A stretch of 34,071 nt of DNA. Origin: Candidatus Aquidulcis sp. Its GTDB lineage: Bacteria > Chloroflexota > Anaerolineae > UBA4142. Positions within the stretch are counted from its first letter, which is position 1, and the number at the start of each line of letters is the position of its first letter. The stretch is from positions 1 to 34,071 of the forward strand of contig DYJA01000068.1 of NCBI GenBank assembly GCA_020723345.1, in the 5' to 3' direction. This document shows positions 6,115 to 12,241 of the stretch, in pieces. The notes beneath the pieces were generated by a model. It was not told where the DNA came from. It saw only the letters and a program-made list of their open reading frames with translations, and ran no database searches. A program made the position numbers and the translations under genes.

Positions 6115-6174
6115 GGCAATCAGGCAATCGGTCAACCGGTTACTGATTGCCTGATCACTTATTGACCGATTGAC
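6115..6174. repeat. Foldback GGCAATC/GATTGCC repeat
   Basis: GGCAATCAGGCAATCGGTCAACCGGT is followed by the approximate reverse complement, ending directly at the stop codon of the propeller-hydrolase gene (complement of 6174-6176). The word ATCAGGCAATC recurs at 17116-17126 in a second element of the same type. Confidence 0.75.
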
Positions 6175-8903
6175 TACTCTGCAAAATCACTCACCCGATA
6201 CGCGTCCGTCGTCAACGCATTTGGCAGTCCGTCAACTTGAATCGCCGCCCAGGACGCATCCATCAATACGAGTTCGACCGCGTACGGTCCGTCGATGCCG
6301 CGCGCGCGAATGTCGCGACCTGGGATCGTGATCGACGCGGTTTGCGTGCCGGCTTTCAGCGTCAGCGGCGCAGTGAGCGACGTGATGAGTTGTCCTTGCG
6401 GACCGCGCAGCGTCGCGCCAACTGCGAACGCGCCCGCGCGCGTCACGTTCACGCTCGTTTCGATCACGAGCGATCCGTTCTCGATTCGCGCGCTTGTCCT
6501 GAGCGGAGTCGAAGGGGCGCCGGTAAATGCGGCAGTCTTGGGCGAGACCGCGAAGATCGTTTGGCTTTCGCGCGCAAAAGTCGTGGTGCGCGCGGTGACG
6601 CGCGCCAGGTAATAACCGCCGCGCGTCAAATCGGCGAGTGTCGCTGCGTACGTCCCCGGTTCGCTCCCGGCGCGGAGCGGCAGATCAATCGAACTGCCGC
6701 GCGGCAATGCGCCGTCGCCGAGCCAGAGAATTTTCGCGCGCACCTCCGCGGTCGTCGCTTTGTTCGACAGCGTCGCGCTGATCGTCACCGTCGATCCCAG
6801 CGCGTACGTCGCGCGATCGGTCGACGCGTCCATTTTCAGATCCGCGTCGAGATCGGCGTAGGTAGTCAGCAACAGCGGCTCCGCGCCTTTGTCCAAGCGC
6901 GTCGCAACAACCGACCACGTGCCGGTCAGCGCGCGCGTCAGCGAATAGCCCGCGAAATCGCCAATGTCCGCTTTCAGGTACGCCGCGTCGCGCAAACTGT
7001 CGGGCGCGTAGCGCGAACCGTCGGGCGCGCGCAATTTCAAATCGATATCGCCGCGATCCCAGCGCGCAAAGAATCGCGCGGCGCGATTCACGTCGAGCGT
7101 AATCGCGCGCGTGATCGTCTCGTTCGCGCGCAGCGTGTCGACGTTCAACGGCGTCGTGTTGCGCGGCGCGAGCGGCTCCGCCGACGTGGTCGCAAAACCG
7201 ATCGGGCGCGCGTCCGGATCGCGCAGCGCGTTGCGAATGTACCGCGCGTACGTTTGATCGGGATACAAATACGACGAGGGATTGAGCGGAATCGGTTCGG
7301 GATCCCACGCATGCACATCGGCATTGGTCAGGCGGCGGACTTGCAAACCTGTGAGCGCGTGCGCGCTCCACACGTCGATCAAGCCATCGGTCGGCGGAAA
7401 AATTTTGAGAAAGTCGAGACCCGTTTGTGTGCGCGCATCGCCGATGAGCAAATCGTACGGGACAGTCGCGCGCGGCGCGTGCGTGCGATTGAAAAGCGCG
7501 GCGTACTCCGGCGTCAGTTCGATCACCGACGGCTCGGTCGGACGATCTTCGATCTCGCGGGTCAAAAACGGATACCATAAACGGACACCGGCTTGCGGCG
7601 TGCCGAGAATGATCGCGCGGCGCACGTCGTCTTGATAGAGCGTGGATTCGAGATACGCGCGCGTGTTCAGTCCGCCCATCGAAAACGCGACAATGTCGAC
7701 GCGCGGCGCGCCGGTTTTCTTTTTCGCGTCGGCGATCACATCGCGCAACGTTTCCGCGTTTTGGAAAAGCGTTTTGTACGGCGAGATGCCTTGCGCGTAA
7801 AAAACCTGAAAGCCATCGCGCTCCAAGTAGCGGCGAAGGTAATGAAACTCGGTGTCGTCAATGTGATCCGAGTCGGCGGTGTGCCAGCCGTGGACGAGAA
7901 CGACCGGCAAAGTTGTGACGCGTTGTAAAGCCGCGCCCATAACGCTCAAGCCGTGCGTCGTGCCGACCCAGAGATTGTCGCGCGCGTCGAGCGCGAGCGC
8001 GGTGATTTGATCCGCGGCGAGTCCGTCCGCGCGGGTGCCATCGGCACTTTTAGTGTACGTTTTCCACTTGCCGCCGTCGAACATCGAGAGCCCGCGCAGC
8101 GTGCCGAACCAAACGCGATTTTGCGCGTCAACCGCAATCGCGCGGACGATGTTGTCCGCGAGCCCATCGGTTTTCGTGTACGTGCGGTACGTCTTGCCGT
8201 CGAACACCGTCGCGCCTTCGTCGGTACCGAACCAGACGCGCGCGTCGCGCGCGACGGCAATCGCGTTGACGCGATTGCTCGCGAGTCCATTCGCGCGCGT
8301 CACGCGCATCCACATTTTGCCGTCGGAGAAGAGCGCGCCGTCGCTCGTCGCAAACCAGGGATTGCCGTTCGCGTCGAGCGCGAGCGCGTTGAAATAATTG
8401 CCGGTGAACGTGTACTTTGCCCACTGTTCGTTTTCGAGCCGCGCGACGCCGTAGCCGAGCGTGCCGACCCACACGCGACCTTGTTTGTCGACCGCGACCG
8501 ATGTGAGATAGTTGCTCGGAATCGCCGAGTTCGCGGTGGTGTACGTTTTGCGATTCGCGCCGTCGAAGAGCGCGAGTCCGCCGCCGTTCGTCGCAAAGTA
8601 CGTTTTGCCGTCGGGCGCAATCGCGATGCCGGTGACGCACGCGTTGCCGAGTCCGTTCGCGGCGGTGTACGTGATCCAGTACTTGTCCTGCACGCGCGTC
8701 GCGCCGCGCGTCGTCCCGACCCACACTGCGCCATCGGATGCGAACGCGATGCCGGTGATGTAATCCGCGGCGAGTCCGTCGCGCTGGGTGTACGTTTGGA
8801 ACGCGGGATTGTCCGCACGCGCGGAAGAAGAGATGAAAGCGGAGAGAAGGAAGATGAGAGCGAGAAAGCAAATTAGGAATTGCGAAATAGTTTTCGTAGG
8901 CAT
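6174..8903 (-). CDS. Secreted seven-bladed propeller fused to an alpha/beta hydrolase
   Basis: A 909-residue secreted protein. Residues 1-30 are a signal peptide ending SSARA. Seven repeats of about 40-45 residues follow (about 40-320), each with a GLA..I..IA...DG.VWVGT pattern, as in two-component-regulator-type propellers. Residues about 330-560 are an alpha/beta hydrolase: VVLVHGW (335-340) for the oxyanion hole, nucleophile elbow AFSMGG with S408, and an acidic candidate in PPTDGLID (503-510). The C-terminal 300 residues look like beta-sandwich modules. No kinase is attached, so the propeller may be a binding platform for a lipase or esterase. The ATG at 8903 was chosen because the signal peptide starts there; the frame is open to 9044, but a TATAAT at 8977-8982 (-) lies inside that extension. 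SD is weak. A dispersed repeat lies in frame at 6497-6515. Confidence 0.85.
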   Translation of the reverse strand: MPTKTISQFLICFLALIFLLSAFISSSARADNPAFQTYTQRDGLAADYITGIAFASDGAVWVGTTRGATRVQDKYWITYTAANGLGNACVTGIAIAPDGKTYFATNGGGLALFDGANRKTYTTANSAIPSNYLTSVAVDKQGRVWVGTLGYGVARLENEQWAKYTFTGNYFNALALDANGNPWFATSDGALFSDGKMWMRVTRANGLASNRVNAIAVARDARVWFGTDEGATVFDGKTYRTYTKTDGLADNIVRAIAVDAQNRVWFGTLRGLSMFDGGKWKTYTKSADGTRADGLAADQITALALDARDNLWVGTTHGLSVMGAALQRVTTLPVVLVHGWHTADSDHIDDTEFHYLRRYLERDGFQVFYAQGISPYKTLFQNAETLRDVIADAKKKTGAPRVDIVAFSMGGLNTRAYLESTLYQDDVRRAIILGTPQAGVRLWYPFLTREIEDRPTEPSVIELTPEYAALFNRTHAPRATVPYDLLIGDARTQTGLDFLKIFPPTDGLIDVWSAHALTGLQVRRLTNADVHAWDPEPIPLNPSSYLYPDQTYARYIRNALRDPDARPIGFATTSAEPLAPRNTTPLNVDTLRANETITRAITLDVNRAARFFARWDRGDIDLKLRAPDGSRYAPDSLRDAAYLKADIGDFAGYSLTRALTGTWSVVATRLDKGAEPLLLTTYADLDADLKMDASTDRATYALGSTVTISATLSNKATTAEVRAKILWLGDGALPRGSSIDLPLRAGSEPGTYAATLADLTRGGYYLARVTARTTTFARESQTIFAVSPKTAAFTGAPSTPLRTSARIENGSLVIETSVNVTRAGAFAVGATLRGPQGQLITSLTAPLTLKAGTQTASITIPGRDIRARGIDGPYAVELVLMDASWAAIQVDGLPNALTTDAYRVSDFAE
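6497..6515. repeat. Dispersed TCCTGAGCGGAGTCGAAGG element inside a gene
   Basis: This 19-nt word lies in frame in the C-terminal part of the propeller-hydrolase. The same element, expanded by two CGGAG units, is at 28662-28690 inside mutS. Both encode STPLR-type peptides in the minus frame. Confidence 0.8.
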
Positions 8904-8976
8904 GCGCGACTCAGTTTGGTGATGCCGTAGCGCGCCGACCACGCCGACGCGCCACGCGAAACGAAAGTGACTTGCA

Positions 8977-8982
8977 ATTATA
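8977..8982 (-). promoter_or_regulatory. Possible -10 box of the propeller-hydrolase gene
   Basis: TATAAT on the minus strand, preceded by GG, lies 73 nt upstream of the chosen start at 8903. No good -35 hexamer is seen at 16-18 nt. Its position argues against the longer reading of the gene. The surrounding gap 8904-9076 holds nothing else recognisable. Confidence 0.3.
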
Positions 8983-9076
8983 CCGACCAACTCCGCCAAA
9001 AGGCGCGTACCGTGCATGGTCGGCGCGTGTTTGGCGGCGTTCATCGGGTTGTCATTCTGCTTTGTCGAACGCGTCT

Positions 9077-9481
9077 TTAAGTGGCGAATGGTTGCGGGTA
9101 TGGAAGCAAGCGTAACTCAGTGATGAAGCGATAGTCACGCTCATTCTTTGTGACAAAGGGGATGCCCTGCAAAATGGCGGTAGCGGCAATCAGCGCGTCC
9201 GCAATCAGCAATCCATGACTCAACCGATAGCGGCGCAACAAGTCAATCGCGAGGTCAGAGGTTTGCTCGTTTGACTTTACTACTCGAAAACGCGACAGAA
9301 ATTTGTCGAGTGCGCGCTGTTCTGCTTTGTTGCGACAACCGACAACGAGTTTCATCTCACTGACAACGCTGATTGCGAGAGACGCTTGGCGTTCAACTTG
9401 TTCGAGACAGATGACCGCGTCGCCGATATTGCGCCCTGCGTCAATCAGTACATCGGTATCTACAACCACCAAATCAGGCAT
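9077..9481 (-). CDS. PIN-domain ribonuclease toxin, VapC-like
   Basis: A 134-residue PIN-domain protein, expected to be a Mg-dependent RNase that acts as a toxin. Acidic metal ligands fit the family: D8 in VVDTDVLID, E42 in SEMKL, D95 in IADALIAATA, and the TKNERDY segment near residue 112-117. Length is typical of VapC. It overlaps the upstream DUF2281-like gene by 8 nt (9474-9481), the usual antitoxin-toxin arrangement. The CGCG density is lower than in neighbouring housekeeping genes. Its RNA target cannot be deduced. Confidence 0.9.
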   Translation of the reverse strand: MPDLVVVDTDVLIDAGRNIGDAVICLEQVERQASLAISVVSEMKLVVGCRNKAEQRALDKFLSRFRVVKSNEQTSDLAIDLLRRYRLSHGLLIADALIAATAILQGIPFVTKNERDYRFITELRLLPYPQPFAT

Positions 9482-9719
9482 GGCGACTCATCCACTCACT
9501 TTGGCGAATACTGCGAACCCACGCGCTACTGTCTTGCAGATCCTTACGATTTCGCCACATACCGATAAAGGGCTCGTCTGCCAACTTGGTGCGTTTCGTA
9601 GTCTTGCTCACGCGTAGTGGTGCATAGCGCGTTCGCAAAAAAGTGATAAAGTCAGCAACCTGTTTCTGAAGTTCAGGTGGCAAAGCGGTGTATTCGCGCC
9701 AGATTCTTTCTTCCTTCAC
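9474..9719 (-). CDS. DUF2281-like antitoxin, VapB partner
   Basis: An 81-residue protein starting with GTG at 9719, chosen because a perfect GGAGGT (9725-9730) lies 5 nt upstream. The pattern of an N-terminal helix with LPPELQKQVADFITFLRTR followed by a basic linker and a W-containing tail matches DUF2281 proteins, which commonly precede PIN toxins. No DNA-binding domain is obvious by eye; an AbrB-type or short MetJ-type fold is not evident. Regulation is probably by autorepression of the short upstream region, which contains TATACT (- strand, 9744-9749) as a candidate -10 box. Confidence 0.75.
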   Translation of the reverse strand: MKEERIWREYTALPPELQKQVADFITFLRTRYAPLRVSKTTKRTKLADEPFIGMWRNRKDLQDSSAWVRSIRQSEWMSRHA

Positions 9720-9833: not shown

Positions 9834-9900
9834 ATACCATTTTTGTTCGCTTCCCACATCTTTATTGCGGGAAACCACATCCCCCCTCGCCTCTAACCCT

Positions 9901-9986
9901 TCCGCGCCTTCCGCATCTCCGCGCGCAACCGTCCCAGCGGCACGTCCGGCGTCAGATCGACAAACCTCATCGGCTCGGCGAGCGCG
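9901..9986 (-). pseudogene. Detached copy of the thyX-like gene 3' end
   Basis: These 86 nt match 10558-10643, the last codons of the ThyX-like gene, with three mismatches and the same orientation. Read on the minus strand it encodes the same C-terminal segment (PDVPLGRLRAEMRKARK), then Gly and an in-frame TAG at 9893-9895. Similarity stops abruptly on both sides. It is therefore a partial duplicate, and possibly the original gene end left behind when the cassette 9992-10542 was inserted. Confidence 0.85.
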
Positions 9987-9991
9987 AAAAT

Positions 9992-10231
9992 TTACGCTGG
10001 ATTCAGTTGGCGCATCTCTGCGGTAATGGGCAGAGAGAAAAAGTCTCGTCGTAGCAAACGGCTGGTAAAGAAGAGAATTTCCAGGTTCTCGATTTTGCCT
10101 GTCTTGGGATTCAGTCGCGCAATAATCTCGTCGCCTAATTCCTCCGATTCTTGTTCGGGATATGGAGGCACAAGATTGATATACAAAATATCGGCGTCGC
10201 GGTCATATTGAAAAGTCAATCTTTGTTCCAT
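9992..10231 (-). CDS. DUF2283 family small protein, probable antitoxin
   Basis: A 79-residue protein with the DUF2283 pattern: LTFQYDRDADILYINLV at the start, then an acidic EQESEELGDEIIARLNP stretch and a terminal NLEILFF strand. Members are typically found beside small toxin-like genes and are regarded as antitoxins. It overlaps the upstream gene by 16 nt (10216-10231) and has AAAGGAG (10239-10245) in front of the ATG. The pair forms a compact cassette between the two copies of the thyX end. It lacks an obvious DNA-binding motif. Confidence 0.82.
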   Translation of the reverse strand: MEQRLTFQYDRDADILYINLVPPYPEQESEELGDEIIARLNPKTGKIENLEILFFTSRLLRRDFFSLPITAEMRQLNPA

Positions 10232-10542
10232 TCGATCTCTCCTTTCGCCAGGCGTCGCGCAATGTACGCCGTGATGATCCAGTGCCGCTCGGTAGGCGCC
10301 GGTTCACTCACAACAACCACCACAACGTACTTACCATGCAAGACATCCTCAAACCAACGCGAGAACAGTCGGGCAGCACTCAAACGAGTACTGCGTCTGA
10401 TTTGATCAGGATCAGCCAATGTTTTCCCGATCTGTTCCAGATACGTCGGCAGTAAATCAGGATGATTGAGCGCAATATGTGCTTCGCGTTCATCAGACAA
10501 TTCGACGTTGCCCTTGAGATATGGGCAAGAGAATACTTGCAT
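10216..10542 (-). CDS. PBECR/RelE-like putative nuclease toxin
   Basis: A 108-residue protein. The pattern of an early EAHIALNHPDLL helix with a central histidine, a LADPDQI turn, a KYVVVVVV strand and a final HWIITAYIARRLAKGEIEW segment resembles the phage-Barnase-EndoU-ColicinE5-RelE (PBECR) nuclease group. In that group, conserved His and Arg residues near the ends form the RNase site. That assignment is from motif memory and is only moderately sure. Its ATG (10542-10540) comes one nucleotide after the ThyX-like stop codon, with no good SD, so translation is probably coupled to the ThyX-like gene. Pairing with DUF2283 supports a toxin-antitoxin role. Confidence 0.65.
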   Translation of the reverse strand: MQVFSCPYLKGNVELSDEREAHIALNHPDLLPTYLEQIGKTLADPDQIRRSTRLSAARLFSRWFEDVLHGKYVVVVVVSEPAPTERHWIITAYIARRLAKGEIEWNKD

Positions 10543-10543
10543 A

Positions 10544-12241
10544 TCAGGTTTGTTCTTTCCGCGCCTTCCGCATCTCCGCGCGCAACCGTCCCAGCGGCAC
10601 GTCCGGCGTCAGGTCAACAAACCTCATCGGCTCGACGAGCGCGGGATGCACGGCTTGAATCGCGCGGAACATTTCTTGCGCGGTGTTGCGGTAATCAGGA
10701 TGACCTTGCGGCACGGAGCGCAGTTCGATCAGGTGGTACGCCTCGCGCAAATTCATCCGCAAATTGTAACGCACGCGATAACCAAACGGCACGACGTACT
10801 GCGCCTCAAACGGCATTTCGTTGGCAAGCCGCTGGTGCAACAGCGCGGCTTGCTCCATGCACCACACATAGTCCGCGCGAATTTCGGGCACGCGGTCGAT
10901 GTCGTCGTTGACGACGTAACCGTGCGCGGTTGTGAACATCTGACGGTCGGGCGTGACGACGCGATGCCGCTGCAAATCGCGATACTCGCCGATGTTGACG
11001 AGCAAATCGAATTCGTACACCGCATGCTCGAACGCGCGCCCCGGCTTGTGCCGCCGATTCTTGCGCTCGCCGACGTACGCGCGGATGATGCGCGCTTTTT
11101 CGTCGTCGCCGAGTTCGCACACACGATCCAGGATTTTTGTCTTGGGTAATTCCGACCCACCGTACAAAATCGCGGCGACAATGCGCTCCAGCGCCGCCGC
11201 GTCGTACCGAACGAGTGTCACTTTTTGATCGGTGGGCGCAACATTGCGCGGCAAGAATTCGCGCGCCAGGTCACGCTCGCGTTCGCGCGCGTCGCGCAAG
11301 TACGTTTGGAACGTTTTGCCTTTTTCGTCGTTCGCGCGTTTCACAAAGGGACCGATCACCTGCTCCAGTTCAAAATGCGCGGCGCGCGCAATCGTCTGCA
11401 TTTCGTCGAGCGGATCGGCGTAGAGACGAATCAGCAAATATTCGAGCGCGCGCCCGTTGCCCCACACGCCCACGTTCGTCAGCGTCGCCAGCGGCAGAAA
11501 ACAGCGGAGCATGTCGCACGCGCGCGCGCGGACGGCTTGGCGGTACGCGGCTTGCGCGCTCTTCAAGAAATCGTCGTCGTGAATTTCGGTATAGCGCGTC
11601 ACATCGCCCGTCGCCGCGTTCTCAAATTCGAGCGACGCAATCGGATAGCGCTGCGTGAGATGTTCGATCATGCGCGATAGGTTGCGCGCGTACGCGTCGA
11701 AGAACGCGTCAAGCGTCGCGACGTACTCCGCGCCGAGCGCCGATTCCAAAATTTTGCGCGGGCGATAGTAGCGGTACTGCCCGTTCACCTTGTCGTCGAA
11801 CGGAACATAGCGCGACGATTTTTCGAGGTACGAAACGCCGATGCGTCCGTGTTCAATCGCTTTGGCGGCGATCTGCGAAACTTCCTGGCAGGCGAGATGC
11901 GCGCCGCCCAGTTCGCCGACCGAATCGTCGCCGTAATCGGACAGAATCCGGCGATAAAAATCTGCGGCGCGCGCGGCATCGACAGCGGGCGTTTCGCGCG
12001 CCGGATCGCTCATGCCGAGATCGGCGCGCGGCAAAAATTCGTCGAGGAAGAGACGGCGGACGCCTTTGGCGGTGCGACTATAGCGCGAAAAAAGCGCGCC
12101 TTTGATCACTTCGGGGAGATTTCTCAACGCGACGATCGAGCGCGTCGCGTTGGTGAAGAAGGGTTCGACGCGACGCGTCTCGTCCGGCGTCAAGATTTCG
12201 CTGGAGGGGGTCAATTGCCATTCGAATTCGTTTGACGACAT
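10544..12241 (-). CDS. thyX: Two-domain ThyX-like FAD-dependent thymidylate synthase
   Basis: A 565-residue protein, about twice the usual ThyX length. It contains two ThyX-like halves. The first shows YGDDSVGELGG and SQIAAKAIEHGRIGVSYLEKSSRY, the Ser/Arg-rich segment that binds dUMP and FAD. The second shows YEFDLLVNIGEYRDLQRHR, with RHR at 425-427 as in the ThyX motif, and a REAYHLIELRSVPQGHP region. ThyX makes dTMP from dUMP with FAD and methylene-tetrahydrofolate. Neither half has an intact canonical RHRxxSxxxxSxR by eye, so activity may rely on both halves. The ATG has GGAG (12247-12250) 5 nt upstream. tmk, the next enzyme in the pathway, lies about 1.1 kb away. The last codons (KEQT and TGA) come after the duplicated 86-bp segment and may derive from the inserted cassette. 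Confidence 0.82.
   Translation of the reverse strand: MSSNEFEWQLTPSSEILTPDETRRVEPFFTNATRSIVALRNLPEVIKGALFSRYSRTAKGVRRLFLDEFLPRADLGMSDPARETPAVDAARAADFYRRILSDYGDDSVGELGGAHLACQEVSQIAAKAIEHGRIGVSYLEKSSRYVPFDDKVNGQYRYYRPRKILESALGAEYVATLDAFFDAYARNLSRMIEHLTQRYPIASLEFENAATGDVTRYTEIHDDDFLKSAQAAYRQAVRARACDMLRCFLPLATLTNVGVWGNGRALEYLLIRLYADPLDEMQTIARAAHFELEQVIGPFVKRANDEKGKTFQTYLRDARERERDLAREFLPRNVAPTDQKVTLVRYDAAALERIVAAILYGGSELPKTKILDRVCELGDDEKARIIRAYVGERKNRRHKPGRAFEHAVYEFDLLVNIGEYRDLQRHRVVTPDRQMFTTAHGYVVNDDIDRVPEIRADYVWCMEQAALLHQRLANEMPFEAQYVVPFGYRVRYNLRMNLREAYHLIELRSVPQGHPDYRNTAQEMFRAIQAVHPALVEPMRFVDLTPDVPLGRLRAEMRKARKEQT
10558..10643. repeat. 86-bp direct repeat, copy within the intact thyX-like gene
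   Basis: Partner of 9901-9986, at an offset of 657 bp and with three mismatches. The two copies bracket the DUF2283/PBECR-like pair exactly, which is what an insertion with target duplication or a recombination-mediated capture would leave. Confidence 0.9.

Follow-up and report, generated by a model that had tools for sequence, protein, structure and literature searches.

The window analysed in the present study (the whole stretch of DNA, 34,071 nucleotides) carries a thyX gene followed by a small toxin–antitoxin (TA)-like gene pair, and this pair lies between two copies of the end of thyX, which raises the question of how such an arrangement could arise. With a probability of about 0.7, we regard the locus as a chromosomal TA cassette whose insertion at the 3′ end of thyX duplicated a long stretch of that gene end. 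The order on the minus strand is thyX, its 87-bp end, the toxin/DUF2283 pair, the 87-bp copy, an older VapBC-like pair and a propeller gene, with the following features:

10544–12241, minus strand: thyX, 565 aa, intact; Thy1 domain (PF02511, E = 8.6e-38); orthologues in relatives
10557–10643, minus strand: gene-end copy attached to thyX (direct repeat)
10216–10542, minus strand: toxin candidate, 108 aa, PBECR2-like below the cut-off (PF18810, E = 7.7e-4)
9992–10231, minus strand: antitoxin candidate, DUF2283, 79 aa (PF10049, E = 6.6e-10, above the cut-off)
9900–9986, minus strand: remnant of the thyX end (repeat copy), continuing to KARKG and a stop (9893–9895)
9474–9719, minus strand: second cassette, VapB/DUF2281-like antitoxin (DUF2281, E = 2.1e-4; TA_VapB, E = 7e-6; both below the cut-off)
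9077–9481, minus strand: second cassette, PIN/VapC-like toxin (PIN, PF01850, E = 1.3e-14)
6174–9044, minus strand: propeller gene, directly 3′ of thyX in relative G009

The PIN gene (9411–9430) and the DUF2283 gene (10187–10206) of the adjoining cassettes also share 19 of 20 nt in inverted orientation, probably by chance.

The repeat search returned a direct repeat of 87 nt (9900–9986 and 10557–10643), with copies that are 96.6% identical (three mismatches), share the same orientation and lie 657 nt apart, start to start. The initial annotation had described an 86-bp repeat with three mismatches; the repeat and its orientation are real, and only its length and the low-end coordinates, which were one base short, had to be corrected. 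BLAST comparison of the two thyX-end copies gave E = 6e-35, and 300 shuffled versions of the 4-kb region yielded at best 44/87 matching positions against the observed 84/87. The remnant (distal) copy is translated as ...RAEMRKARKG followed by a native-type stop (9893–9895), and the copy attached to thyX as ...RAEMRKARKEQT followed by a stop at 10544–10546, with the result that intact thyX carries a changed C-terminal tail, KARKEQT, with three new codons. The earlier description of a distal copy continuing to Gly and a stop, and of an attached copy continuing to EQT, a stop and then the toxin start, is read directly in the sequence. One base separates the thyX stop from the ATG of the toxin candidate (10542; spacing TGA-T-ATG), and the remnant begins 5 nt past the DUF2283 stop. 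The inner 570 bp have a G+C content of 47.9% versus 60.4% for thyX, and the thyX cassette locus contains no tRNA gene.

The toxin-candidate and DUF2283 genes are both open and overlap by 16 nt. The DUF2283 assignment is firm (39.4 bits; cut-off, 23). At the same time, the proposed PBECR identity of the toxin could not be upheld: PBECR2 (PF18810) is only the best match, scoring 20.1 bits against a curated cut-off of 27.1, it matches weakly in four of six homologues of the 108-aa protein, and the AlphaFold model built from six sequences (pLDDT 53) was uninformative, being too poor for fold searches. Neither PADLOC nor NCBIfam recognised the pair. Close relatives of the 108-aa protein occur in Chloroflexota, Acidobacteria, Poribacteria and Cyanobacteria, each with a DUF2283 gene beside it, and the pairing is kept at 7/7 close homologous loci. 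Toxicity and antitoxin function are predicted from family and layout. The TGA-T-ATG spacing makes translational coupling of the toxin candidate to thyX plausible, and the pair is probably co-expressed off the thyX transcript. The match of the thyX product itself to TIGR02170 is weak.

The state of the site before insertion can be judged from relatives. A thyX gene is present in 18 of the 60 genomes, with long matches of roughly 57–78% identity in G002, G004, G009, G012 and G014–G019. No cassette and no second thyX end were found at the thyX loci of the same family (G002, G004, G009 and G012), and relatives from two families (these four genomes; family f2) have a single thyX end and lack the cassette. 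In G009 the propeller gene, 73% identical across 441 aa (tblastn, L020), stands immediately after thyX, and both TA pairs found at thyX in the window are therefore additions. G009, which is empty and colinear, belongs to another genus; thyX of the same-genus genome G002 is followed by different downstream DNA. The proposed entry of the cassette at the 3′ end of thyX, with the gene end rebuilt and a remnant with the native-type stop left behind, agrees with the single end and missing cassette in relatives; a duplicated end in cassette-free relatives, which would speak against such an entry, was looked for, and their thyX loci show a single end. Additionally, in G016 and G019 of the sister family, a HicB-type antitoxin-like gene, recognised by eye, overlaps the thyX stop, and the thyX end has therefore been used repeatedly.

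The search for further cassettes between copies of host gene ends, suggested in the initial annotation, was productive. The direct-repeat scan covered 2.25 Mb of the genome (6.34 Mb in a 132-contig draft; the compared genomes include drafts), with about 0.24 Mb picked for the window and the DUF2283 loci and 2.01 Mb taken irrespective of content. It revealed six further TA brackets of 57–127 bp, each enclosing a different TA-type pair:

nuoK, 5′ end: 87/91 nt, 93% identical; DUF4258-type + DUF2283
nuoL, 3′ end: 127 bp; VapB-like + PIN, then Doc
nuoF, 3′ end: about 57 bp; HigBA
leuC, 3′ end: 67 bp; HicBA
flpD, 5′ end: 66 bp; DUF433 + DUF5615
Fe-S oxidoreductase, 3′ end: 110 bp; ParE-like pair

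Thus thyX is not a special target, since six other host genes are bracketed alike and enclose unrelated TA families. The process is a generic one: at several loci, TA pairs of unrelated kinds lie at either the 3′ or the 5′ end of conserved genes that are themselves unrelated. The inserts have a lower G+C content than the DNA around them, the cassettes contain TA-type genes only and no recombinase genes, and the boundaries of the seven brackets, compared by eye, have no common motif, the bracket sequence differing gene by gene. At nuoK the downstream copy is intact and the upstream copy lacks four bases. Within the unselected 2.01 Mb, the TA brackets are those of the Fe-S oxidoreductase, leuC and nuoF genes, and only two other gene-end brackets (L100 and L167) were found; the enrichment of TA pairs in brackets is descriptive. 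Two of the 14 DUF2283 loci in the genome are bracketed (thyX and nuoK).

The two other gene-end brackets hold nuclease-type genes, namely a PD-(D/E)XK (GxxExxY) gene between 100-bp copies of a gene end plus intergenic DNA (L100:4122–4829) and an HNH endonuclease pair enclosed by 216-bp copies of a type IIG restriction gene's 3′ end (L167:5343–7130, contig C54). Further repeats were not counted as brackets: those at L087, L157, L162 and L175 consist of coding DNA that is paralogous or repetitive, and those at L112, L118, L122 and L155 are intergenic repeats of a dispersed or simple type. TA cassettes stand at the nuoK 5′, nuoL 3′ (two stacked) and nuoF 3′ ends (L079 in C25; L126 in C102), and they land preferentially in complex I genes. 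The FlpD/MvhD-like gene on the minus strand of C34 (L081:7007–7444) has an in-frame TGA (...MVAG-stop-LEGTCHY...) where a conserved Cys is expected, which could possibly encode selenocysteine.

Comparison with related genomes extends the pattern. The leuC and nuoF targets are single, with the insert absent, in 8–10 relatives, the nuoF cassette in particular being absent in eight other relatives. In genome G007, of another genus, this nuoF end likewise bears a HigBA pair (74% and 81% identity) and a separate 60-bp remnant, which resembles the nuoF of G007 itself; the nuoF remnants of G007 and of the genome studied here (G000) start at one and the same codon. The pairing of TA and host gene is kept across relatives at nuoF and absent for leuC and nuoL; in the same-genus genome G001, the nuoL end carries another pair, DUF4160-DUF2442, right after the stop. 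In G019, the stop of an ankyrin-type gene is overlapped by the start of a DUF4258-like/DUF2283 pair; next come a 62-bp end copy, a pair in inverted orientation and another end copy, the third, and G018 has a reduced version of this array. Copies of the rpe 5′ end surround a DUF2283 gene in G011, where the same region (L261:1348–2565) also shows nested scars with a HicAB-like pair and a 60-bp copy of an internal rlmN piece fused to the rpe remnant; a simple one-arm insertion does not account for the repeated rlmN piece. The closest homologue of the thyX cassette, in an Anaerolineae MAG (L046:2728–3844), lies among intergenic direct repeats of 112/200 bp, and no flanking repeats were found at six other close homologues (L026, L027 and L047–L050), so that this type of cassette does not always come with a bracket.

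Whether the two copies descend from one sequence or from two can be approached through their differences. In the 3′-end cases, the full gene generally has an altered tail or stop context and the native-type stop is retained in the remnant; the TGA stop of the leuC remnant overlaps the dapB start. The seven copy pairs differ at 46 positions (8/10/28 at the three codon positions), and 26 of these 46 differences are synonymous against 11.7 expected under unconstrained change (p = 7e-6). Relatives allowed 29 of the differences to be placed: the intact copy has 17 of them and the remnant 12, a more even split than free decay of the remnant would give. Decay of a true duplicate beside a constrained gene predicts a synonymous fraction of 0.33–0.40 with 25–39% of the differences on the intact copy; the observed values are 0.57 and 17/29, and the departure (p from 0.02 to 2e-4, varying with the assumptions) should be read in the light of only 46 and 29 differences and noisy outgroups. 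As the differences are coding-like and not concentrated in the remnant, two alleles are favoured over one duplicated sequence, and the copies may derive from two alleles and not from a decaying duplicate, which this pattern suggests at most. Direct proof of a donor was sought in the form of an intact gene with a foreign 3′ end, and none was seen at nuoL, leuC or nuoF, the intact 3′ ends of which diverge from relatives no more than the rest of the gene. The G000 nuoF remnant carries changes at otherwise conserved Glu positions, and these look like decay.

Insertion-duplication would account for such loci as follows. An incoming fragment sharing a gene end with the chromosome would bring its DNA in by recombination, and the resulting two copies would stem from two alleles. 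Full-length thyX is kept with its new three-codon tail, and the native-type end is left as a remnant. As any insert can be removed cleanly when the two copies recombine, it is proposed that addictive inserts survive: bracketed ordinary DNA would be lost in this way, and TA inserts would persist as segregants losing them are poisoned. The earlier suggestion that loss of the cassette is costly through thyX does not hold, since the direct repeats permit a clean pop-out restoring full thyX (KARKG), so retention must come from addiction and any cost must lie in the toxin. No Ku gene was found in the nearly complete draft genome and a ComEC gene is present, a weak indication that uptake with homologous or one-sided recombination fits better than end joining.

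A true target-site duplication remains a tentative alternative, by which two nicks or a staggered break 60–130 bp apart would be filled in during capture, giving copies that were identical at first. The variable repeat lengths (57–127 bp) and the lack of a motif common to the boundaries agree with it, but synonymous changes are over-represented among the mismatches, which do not cluster in the remnant, end joining would lack a Ku gene here, and the nuoF remnants of G000 and G007 begin at the same codon. This last coincidence, with two genera sharing both HigBA and the bracket start at nuoF and a G007 remnant like its own nuoF, would suit an excisable circle, in which the TA pair plus gene end is released by recombination between the copies, re-enters the same gene in other cells by homologous exchange and builds arrays; the series gene-TA-copy-TA-copy (G019) and gene-TA-copy-TA (thyX, nuoL) have the corresponding form. 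We nevertheless consider the circle rather doubtful, as the other TA–gene pairings are private to G000, no circle was observed, and nuoF is also explicable by common descent with gene conversion. An unlikely extension is that TA cassettes are autonomous homology-guided elements without a recombinase of their own, which carry a gene-end copy, pop out as a circle, re-enter, stack and become fixed by addiction.

An ancestral cassette beside thyX, duplicated in tandem together with the gene end and then reduced by deletion to one cassette and the extra end, would need no insertion mechanism, and similar cassettes do adjoin other genes flush and without repeats. It is improbable, given relatives that lack the cassette at thyX, remnants that retain native-type stops (e.g., the leuC TGA overlapping the dapB start) and the need for two events at each of seven loci. 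Mobilisation in trans by a site-specific integrase, with the gene end serving as an att site, is highly improbable: gene ends are classical att sites and the arrays resemble tandem accretion, but no cassette has an integrase, and the repeat differs per host gene without a common core. Chance or misassembly, which the 132-contig draft might invite, is scarcely credible in view of the 84/87 matches against at most 44/87 after shuffling, the non-identity of the copies and the independent cases across several genomes.

Insertion-duplication has parallels among known systems. Integrative elements use gene ends as att sites, and their insertion at a 3′ end regenerates the gene and leaves a remnant; the loci described here differ in having no integrase, a target that varies per cassette and no shared core. 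Integron cassette arrays with TA modules are likewise stacks of small cassettes with repeats between them, stabilised by TA; here, however, the repeats are copies of local host gene ends, and the cassettes share no single recombination site. "Insertion with long target duplication" is known for restriction–modification (RM) systems (Nobusato et al. 2000, Gene 259:99; Furuta et al. 2010; described in PMC3874152, PMC3031569, PMC1643837). Its features are an addiction-type module, direct repeats of about 100 bp and variable length, no transposase of its own and a single target in genomes without the insert, all of which resemble the present loci. The differences are that the cargo here consists of TA-type pairs, drawn from six or more unrelated families and found in Chloroflexota-type genomes (an affiliation based on named homologous records such as L046), with no RM system inserted, and that the repeats are ends of protein genes restoring the gene, with stacked arrays and coding-like differences between the copies. 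RM genes of the PabI family insert in operons and have been proposed to impose operon maintenance via post-segregational killing; they too form an addiction module on the same strand within an operon, but an RM pair is involved there, and here a TA pair with a gene-end copy left behind (PMC4615327, PMC10273834). No prior report of TA modules with target or gene-end duplication was found in the open-access literature searched.

The unexplained insertion mode known from restriction enzymes thus seems also to spread addiction modules. How TA modules move between chromosomes without a plasmid, phage or transposon is an old open question, and the scar described here, a TA pair between copies of its neighbour's gene end, allows insertion events to be dated, counted and compared, and ties TA mobility to the long-target-duplication insertions of RM systems. 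If the scar is kept only with an addictive insert, it would provide a natural test of chromosomal post-segregational killing. Moreover, small foreign pairs enter essential operons, including several complex I genes, without breaking them.
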